Below are positions 56,559-64,000 of a stretch of DNA of 64,000 bases, piece by piece; the first letter of the stretch is position 1, and each line of letters opens with the position of its first letter. The position numbers and the translations under genes are program-made. A model generated the notes under the pieces. That model ran no database searches. It saw only the letters and a program-made list of their open reading frames with translations, and was not told the DNA's origin. The DNA is taken from positions 1,798,001 to 1,862,000 of the forward strand of contig NZ_AP025018.1 in assembly GCF_019977735.1 (NCBI RefSeq). The letters run 5' to 3'. Source of the DNA: Calothrix sp. PCC 7716 (GTDB taxonomy: Bacteria > Cyanobacteriota > Cyanobacteriia > Cyanobacteriales > Nostocaceae).

Positions 56559-58124
56559 ATGCAGCCAAAATCCTTGAAATCTACCCTAGCGACTTTTTCT
56601 GTAACTCTTGGTTTCGGAACCGTTGCAGCTTTTTTGTCACCTTCGTTTAAAACTGGTGCAGCAGTATTTAGTAGTGCAATTGCTAGTGCAGGTATGGCTG
56701 TACTGAATATTCGAGAAGACAAACAAAACGAACGATTGCTTCGAGAGGTTAAACGTTTAGCAACAGCCTATGGGAATTTAGAATTAAAGGTAGAAAATTT
56801 AGAGAGGTTTTATCAGCTTCAAAGTAGTCATCAGCTTGTAGTTAACCCTGTTAATTCGATATTAACTTCATATACACCTCCAATTATTGCAGCAACAGGT
56901 GCAACGAAGTTAATAGCTGAATTAAATAGATTGAAGGTTAATTTAAGGTTGCCTTACAAGCAGTTGGAGAAAGATGATTTATTTGATGCAGCTATTTTTA
57001 TGGGAGATAACTATCCTGCATTAGCTTTAGTGTATCGAAAGATGAAAGCGAGTATAAGCGGTGACATGCAAGGTGGTTTTTCGTATAAATTATCTGGTAT
57101 TGAGGATAATGATGAGATATGTTTACGTTTTCGAGCCATTTTAGAGAGTAAGGGGTTATGGACTTCTAAGTATATTAAGTCTGAGAAAAGGATTCGGTTT
57201 CAACCACATAGTGGAGATACAAAGGTTAGGAGTTTTTTTGAGGGAGGTTGGTTAGAAAAGTTTGTTGTTTACAAAATATGTAGTTTGCTTTCATTACATG
57301 GTATAAATTTTGAATATTTAATTAATCCTCATGTTAGTTATTCTTTTGAAGAGTCGAAGTATTATGAGCTTGATGCTTTATTTTTAGTTGATAATCAATT
57401 AATTTTGTTTGAAGTTAAAACTGGTGATAAAAGTAATGTGTATCTTAATCAAATCAATGAGCATTCTAAACGCAGGCGCCTAAATCTTTCTAAAAATCGA
57501 GCTTTTTTGGTTACATTATCATTAACTGATAGTGAGACTGAAGACTGGAATCGAAACAATAATAATATCACTATAGTTAATCTGAATAATTTAACAAATT
57601 GTTTTGCTAATAGTTTGGGCTTAGTTACTACTGAAGAATCGAAAATACAAGCTTCTATATTTAGTACCGAAGAATTATATACATTTTTAAATCACAAAAA
57701 ACTGCGTCCTTCACCAGAACACCGTTTGAATGTGATTACAGAGTTAGTCAGCACGATAAAAGCGCTTGAGGAACCATTAACTTTCAATGAAATTAGAAAC
57801 AAAATCGCTGAAAAGTTACAGATATCAAAAGCATTAACAGAAGAAGTTTTACGTGCTATTCGACGTTCTAGTTGTTTTGTTAATGCAGAGGGAGGATCAA
57901 TATCCCAGTTTACACAGTTAAGTGAGCCAATAAAAGGTTTATTATTTGAAGATATTTCAGTTTTAGATAGTAAATGTATTGAGACTTATGCTTCTACAGT
58001 TGTAGCTGAGTATCCTAATTATTTTAACAGCTTACAGAACATTAAAATCTTTGAAGAAACTGTTGGCGCCGACGCTCCTGATATAGAAACAATCAATCAA
58101 CTCAAGCTCAGAAATATCAATTAA
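56559..58124 (+). CDS. Membrane-anchored Card1/DUF1887-like nuclease candidate
   Basis: A 521-residue protein. Residues about 8-50 hold two hydrophobic segments (LATFSVTLGFGTVAAFL, AAVFSSAIASAGMAVL), followed by a coiled coil. Residues about 190-345 match the PD-(D/E)XK part of Card1/Can-type DUF1887 nucleases: EGGWLEKFVVYKI, then YYELDALFLVDNQLILFEVK, with the Glu-Leu-Asp, Glu and Lys that form the metal site. No CARF nucleotide sensor is visible; the membrane anchor takes its place. A C-terminal helical domain (LTFNEIRNKIAEKLQISKAL) looks like a winged-helix or OST-HTH type module. No CRISPR genes are nearby. Function in defence is inferred. Confidence 0.65.
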   Translation: MQPKSLKSTLATFSVTLGFGTVAAFLSPSFKTGAAVFSSAIASAGMAVLNIREDKQNERLLREVKRLATAYGNLELKVENLERFYQLQSSHQLVVNPVNSILTSYTPPIIAATGATKLIAELNRLKVNLRLPYKQLEKDDLFDAAIFMGDNYPALALVYRKMKASISGDMQGGFSYKLSGIEDNDEICLRFRAILESKGLWTSKYIKSEKRIRFQPHSGDTKVRSFFEGGWLEKFVVYKICSLLSLHGINFEYLINPHVSYSFEESKYYELDALFLVDNQLILFEVKTGDKSNVYLNQINEHSKRRRLNLSKNRAFLVTLSLTDSETEDWNRNNNNITIVNLNNLTNCFANSLGLVTTEESKIQASIFSTEELYTFLNHKKLRPSPEHRLNVITELVSTIKALEEPLTFNEIRNKIAEKLQISKALTEEVLRAIRRSSCFVNAEGGSISQFTQLSEPIKGLLFEDISVLDSKCIETYASTVVAEYPNYFNSLQNIKIFEETVGADAPDIETINQLKLRNIN

Positions 58125-58513: not shown

Positions 58514-61340
<2,827 letters not shown>

Positions 61341-61670
61341 TAATCAATTTAAAGGATTGTTTGTAATTCAATACCCGCGCCCTTCTCGTAATAATTACTG
61401 AGCGTAATTAAACTCAACACGGTTACTGCCTACAATTTGCGTCACTATGCAGTTTTCAAGGTTCTTACTGGAAATACATCCAGCAGGCTTAGTTATCTTA
61501 ATAACTCTAGTTGCTGACTGTATATATACTTACTTTTCATTTTTAATTAATCCGAATCGGATAATAGTTTGAAGCCAAAGTCAATTCTCTCTCGACCTAG
61601 GTGATGACCTTCTTGTTGGTTTTTAAGCACTGAAGTGCTTATTACAAGCAAGTTGGGTAGGTCTCCCTAA
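61341..61670 (-). other. 16S-23S spacer without tRNA genes
   Basis: The spacer is about 330 bp. I find neither tRNA-Ile nor tRNA-Ala. It contains the conserved box-like sequence AACCTTGAAAACTGCATAG (61443-61465 region), a CAGCAACTAGAGTTATTAAG box-B-type hairpin, and the usual start AGGGAGACCTACCC after 16S. Filamentous cyanobacteria are known to have operons both with and without spacer tRNAs. Confidence 0.85.
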
Positions 61671-63157
<1,487 letters not shown>

Positions 63158-63573: not shown

Positions 63574-63798
63574 TTATGGTGTTTTTTGTAGCTCTGGACG
63601 CTCTTCAGGAAGAATGGCGCCTTCAACTGGACAAACCTGTAGACAAATACCGCAGTCAATACAGGTAGCAAAATCAATCCAGTACCAATCAGTACCTTTG
63701 GTATTTTTTCCAGGGCCATCATGAATACAAGCAACTGGACAAGCATTTACGCAGTCAGCAACACCTTCACAGACATTTGTAACAATTGTATGCGGCAT
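63574..63798 (-). CDS. 7Fe-type ferredoxin (3Fe-4S and 4Fe-4S)
   Basis: A 74-residue electron carrier. The first cluster motif is C-x5-C-x3-C-x3-C (VCEGVADCVNACPVACIH), and the second is the full 4Fe-4S motif CIDCGICLQVCP. The first lacks the usual CxxCxxC spacing, so that centre may be 3Fe-4S or atypical. GGAGAGGG precedes the ATG at 63798. The partner enzyme is unknown. Confidence 0.93.
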   Translation of the reverse strand: MPHTIVTNVCEGVADCVNACPVACIHDGPGKNTKGTDWYWIDFATCIDCGICLQVCPVEGAILPEERPELQKTP

Positions 63799-63885
63799 AA
63801 TGTTCCCTCTCCAAACTATTTAGACAATAAAGCTGTACTAAAGCTTTTATACATTAGCAAGATTATGGAAAATCTTGTTGATGAT

Positions 63886-64000
63886 TTACACCGACTCAAT
63901 AACGGGTGGAGCATCAGCTTTTATCCAAGCAATCTGCCCAATACCTCGTCGTACCGCATACTCTCTAATTGCTTTTTCATCTCGTTCCCCTAAGTCCATC
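63886..64000 (-). CDS. C-terminal end of a gene cut by the right edge
   Basis: The minus-strand frame open to the edge ends at TAA 63886-63888 and reads MDLGERDEKAIREYAVRRG then IGQIAWIKADAPPV. It looks like real protein. The ATG at 63999 could be a start of a 37-residue protein, but a longer gene running off the edge is more likely. It lies 87 bp upstream of the ferredoxin start, on the same strand. Family not recognised. Confidence 0.45.
   Translation of the reverse strand, partial: MDLGERDEKAIREYAVRRGIGQIAWIKADAPPVIESV

Follow-up and report, generated by a model that had tools for sequence, protein, structure and literature searches.

The minus-strand gene at positions 63574..63798 of the window (the whole 64,000-nucleotide stretch of Calothrix sp. 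PCC 7716 DNA analysed here) very probably encodes Fed8 (Fx8, Ssr3184-type), a soluble protein that carries one electron at a time and has a [3Fe-4S] and a [4Fe-4S] cluster. Far from being an anomaly, its cysteine arrangement is the standing signature of a cyanobacterial ferredoxin that already has a name. The ferredoxin is already known, and the idea of a three-iron centre is reasonable and already in print.

The open reading frame runs from an ATG start to a TAA stop and specifies 74 residues (MPHTIVTNVCEGVADCVNACPVACIHDGPGKNTKGTDWYWIDFATCIDCGICLQVCPVEGAILPEERPELQKTP), with cysteines at positions 10, 16, 20, 24, 46, 49, 52 and 56. A ribosome-binding-site-like sequence, GGAGAGGG, stands at 63805..63812 (minus strand), its putative role being read from its position upstream of the start codon. 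When the gene was compared codon by codon with 11 hand-picked relatives, the differences were mostly synonymous, with 36 synonymous and 7 non-synonymous codon differences from locus L071, and 3 and 0, respectively, from L007. Proteins 100% identical to the window ferredoxin are found in L004-L007. By its reading frame, its coding conservation and these identical proteins, 63574-63798 is a real, conserved gene. Beyond the ferredoxin itself, the 12.37 Mb host genome contains only two weak matches at E <= 0.01, both short and 42% and 43% identical. A sequencing error or a lineage oddity was rejected as the source of the cysteine motif, because the identical proteins occur in L004-L007 and the pattern recurs in 128 of 129 loci.

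The original prediction described a C-x5-C-x3-C-x3-C motif beside a normal 4Fe-4S motif, and both are present. The first (C-x5-C-x3-CP-x2-C; 63727..63771, minus strand) reads C10-x5-C16-x3-C20-x3-C24, and the second (CxxCxxCxxxCP; 63631..63663, minus strand) reads C46-x2-C49-x2-C52-x3-C56, its cysteines being invariant in two ferredoxin alignments. The first spacing had also been called atypical, and here the cysteine pattern is real but its oddness is not: the C10-C16 distance is canonical, a single ligand is absent, and cyanobacteria widely share the arrangement. The distances from C10 to C16 and to the C20-proline are those of a normal CxxCxxCxxxCP motif, and the C-x5-C thus reads as the usual CxxCxxC in which valine (V13) replaces the middle cysteine, with no insertion or deletion. 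C24 may lie outside the first cluster motif. With a ligand lost at residue 13, the first motif is expected to hold [3Fe-4S] instead of [4Fe-4S]. The earlier guess of a [3Fe-4S] centre is thus the expected outcome, and the literature lists this ferredoxin type in the same way; for a centre of unusual potential the evidence speaks neither for nor against, and the interpretation as a whole is partly supported.

The first-motif pattern stands in 128 of the 129 loci read. These loci comprise the best 80 of 537 confirmed relatives, 29 loci (besides the window's own) from a sample of 292 genomes of the phylum, and 20 divergent loci; the latter two sets (29 + 20) cover 49 of the 132 matches that the 292-genome sample holds apart from the window's own, and some species are possibly counted twice. 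In the single locus without a readable motif, L074, one letter close to the protein start cannot be read. The 128 readable loci contain 72 distinct motif sequences. Position 13 is occupied by V in 108 of them, I in 14, K in 5 and E in 1, and by cysteine in none, a tally that describes the Fed8-type family and not ferredoxins at large, because similarity to the query decided which loci were read. A wider earlier tally had taken in a few other iron-sulphur proteins, three of them with C13, and the 128-locus count is clean of these. Position 24 is a cysteine in all 128 loci, and exactly 24 residues separate the CP from the C46 equivalent in 122. In a distant relative with a 365-aa open frame, a fusion was considered and not so read; the ferredoxin stretch occupies the extreme end of a frame extended upstream.

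At a threshold of E <= 1e-10, a Fed8-type match is found in 133 of the 292 phylum genomes. In the same class, 125 of 139 genomes (the window's own included) have one match each, as against 8 of 153 outside it. Eleven of the 14 in-class misses fall in a single genus, probably Prochlorococcus, whose genomes measure 1.6-1.7 Mb. In the published table, fed8 is absent from four of the five named Prochlorococcus rows (PMC4284462; this and the other articles are cited for the portions available). Wide presence in cyanobacteria combined with absence from several probable Prochlorococcus is thus as published for Fed8 (Ssr3184). Among the eight matching out-of-class genomes, five have lysine at position 13 (L119, L120, L122, L124, L125) and the other three have valine (L121, L123, L126).

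For the two clusters, the following arrangement is proposed. Since residue 13 is valine, site I would have no more than three cysteine ligands, C10, C16 and C56, and would therefore hold a three-iron cluster, [3Fe-4S]. At site II, C20 would join C46, C49 and C52 around a [4Fe-4S] cluster, and C24 would be a conserved spare cysteine. The last cysteine of two-cluster ferredoxins serves the first cluster, and the cysteines of the Fed8-type protein are presumably distributed as in Azotobacter FdI and the clostridial ferredoxins.

Site I may instead carry a [4Fe-4S] cluster in vivo, with the fourth iron held by water, E11/D15 or C24, and the 3Fe form appearing only on oxidation. E11 and D15 are invariant among 32 close sequences, C24 is invariant in the 128 loci, and interconversion of 3Fe and 4Fe forms is described in general terms for some ferredoxins (PMC11430716). 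D15, however, gives way to E, T and S in the distant relatives L114, L115 and L116, respectively. C24 is also found in the aligned C-x7-C relatives, where we take its counterpart to be a non-ligand. Convertible 3Fe/4Fe ferredoxins have an aspartate at the position matching residue 13, whereas V or I stands there in 122 of the 128 loci. Fed8 is, moreover, listed as [3Fe-4S][4Fe-4S] (PMC4284462), and a four-iron site I is considered unlikely. Less probable still is the original prediction taken literally, in which C10, C16, C20 and C24 would together bind a single, self-contained cluster of odd spacing and unusual potential. All 128 loci conserve these four cysteines, but C20 aligns with a cysteine-proline of a known 7-Fe ferredoxin that presumably serves the other cluster, and that ferredoxin also has a cysteine matching C24. 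Structure predictions from 32 near-identical rows (mean pLDDT 42.9) and from 37 rows (mean pLDDT 54.4) were too poor for cysteine geometry or a fold search. The three-iron site I remains the preferred assignment.

The surroundings of the gene agree in part with the published context of fed8, which in some genomes lies beside cluster c (fed2, nuc, suhB, dnaJ, hisZ) and livB, and in several Nostocales together with cluster c (PMC4284462). Upstream of the ferredoxin, the window contains the 3' end of a hisZ-like gene (63886..64000, minus strand), the rest of which lies beyond the window (L113 ORF 886-2091; Pfam PF13393 tRNA-synt_His); the name HisZ is taken from the published gene order (PMC4284462). 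The order in the window's genome is [2Fe-2S] ferredoxin, nuclease-like, suhB-like, DnaJ/TPR, HisZ-like and then the Fed8-type ferredoxin, the suhB-like and nuclease-like names coming from the published order and inspection by eye and not from a family search. The fed2-nuc-suhB-dnaJ-hisZ side is therefore in its published order here, but the livF-type gene is absent beside the ferredoxin. In the window's whole genome, the best match to the livF query is only 46% identical, while the downstream livF copies listed for relatives are 64-92% identical to the same query. Counting only those of the 129 loci in which the side concerned extends for 1500 bases or more (L001-L003, L113, L134 and L135 left out), hisZ is matched upstream in 71 of 120 and livF downstream in 75 of 117.

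On its downstream side, the ferredoxin is followed by a 16S rRNA gene (61671..63156, minus strand; Rfam RF00177), which begins 417 bases after the stop codon and is a neighbour, no part of the ferredoxin's function. In three related loci, L005, L007 and L009, as in the window's genome (61671-63576), a 16S gene lies some 415-435 bases past the ferredoxin stop on the same strand, at a site where many cyanobacteria have a livF-type gene; in L004 and L006 the contig stops 270 and 349 bases, respectively, past the matched coding stretch. In the 16S-23S spacer (61336-61671), tRNA genes are absent at the Rfam threshold, and the spacer of L007 has two. Beyond the rRNA operon, a 521-residue frame (56559-58124) includes DALFLVDNQLILFEVKTG, which by eye looks like a nuclease core.

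Among classified ferredoxins, the pattern CX5CX3CPX24CX2CX2CX3CP defines 7Fe-8S subtype 6, for which one bacterial and one eukaryotic example are given (PMC8928951, PMC11430716), and the Synechococcus elongatus ferredoxin ABB56846.1 is among the 7Fe-8S references (PMC8928951). The window ferredoxin fits this signature exactly, with 24 residues between C20-P21 and C46; no difference from subtype 6 was found, the subtype being defined by spacing alone. In the PDB, the best small-ferredoxin match is the 7-Fe ferredoxin 1bc6 (phmmer 2.7e-9; profile search 4.2e-16); two long polyferredoxins outscore it in phmmer, and long polyferredoxins also do so by profile. The profile search found the 7-Fe ferredoxins 1bc6, 1h98 and 1axq, and clostridial 2[4Fe-4S] ferredoxins were matched in both searches. 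All eight cysteines align with those of 1bc6, including the extra one after CPxx, but the first loop of 1bc6 is C-x7-C and two residues longer (a two-residue gap in the phmmer alignment). The same C-x7-C loop is presumably present in 1h98 and 1axq (Bacillus 7-Fe / Azotobacter FdI). The protein also falls outside the FdxA type, scoring 39.9 against the NCBIfam FdxA_fam cut-off of 65 bits and having C-x5-C where that type has C-x7-C. In clostridial 2[4Fe-4S] ferredoxins (2fdn), whose motif is CxxCxxCxxxCP, the distances are the same as from C10 to C16 and C20, but the window protein has valine 13 in place of the second cysteine, and the extra C24, and so is not of this type. Putatively viral environmental contigs yielded 190 confirmed FdxA-like relatives, the best 80 of which (L136-L215) all have C-x7-C. 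Two actinobacterial plasmids encode FAD-dependent oxidoreductases with an N-terminal C-x5-C ferredoxin (L134:1992-3599, L135:1992-3689), in which aspartate occupies the position of V13.

The closest known system is Fed8 of Synechocystis (ssr3184), described as a [3Fe-4S][4Fe-4S] ferredoxin that is essential for photoautotrophic growth and conserved in cyanobacteria (PMC4284462). The cluster assignment is repeated in two reviews (PMC8066212, PMC4307280) and again alongside a report that deletion of fx8 failed (PMC8887894); the available text of the latter also refers to a triple mutant in which fx8 is one of the genes, and the two statements disagree. The same text gives measured potentials for Fx1, Fx2 and Fx4 only, quotes the general 3Fe-4S range for Fx8, and states that the potentials of all low-abundance Synechocystis ferredoxins would need to be known (PMC8887894). 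No spectroscopic study of Fed8 was recognised in the open-licence literature searched, judged by titles and the beginnings of abstracts. The cysteine pattern itself matters little, being already catalogued; the physiological interest lies in a ferredoxin reported as essential or not deletable in Synechocystis and conserved across most sampled cyanobacterial genomes. It is conceivable, if rather doubtful, that the near-fixed V/I13 locks site I in the 3Fe state and that Fed8 serves one dedicated, essential electron-transfer step of cyanobacteria for which ordinary [2Fe-2S] ferredoxin cannot substitute and with which one small-genome genus (probably Prochlorococcus) dispenses. By gene context, cysteine signature and description, the window protein apparently fits Ssr3184. 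The likeness to Fed8/Fx8 extends to the listed cluster type, the wide cyanobacterial distribution, the absence from the small-genome genus and the neighbourhood on the hisZ side, and the difference lies downstream, where the published livF-type gene gives way to an rRNA operon in the window genome.
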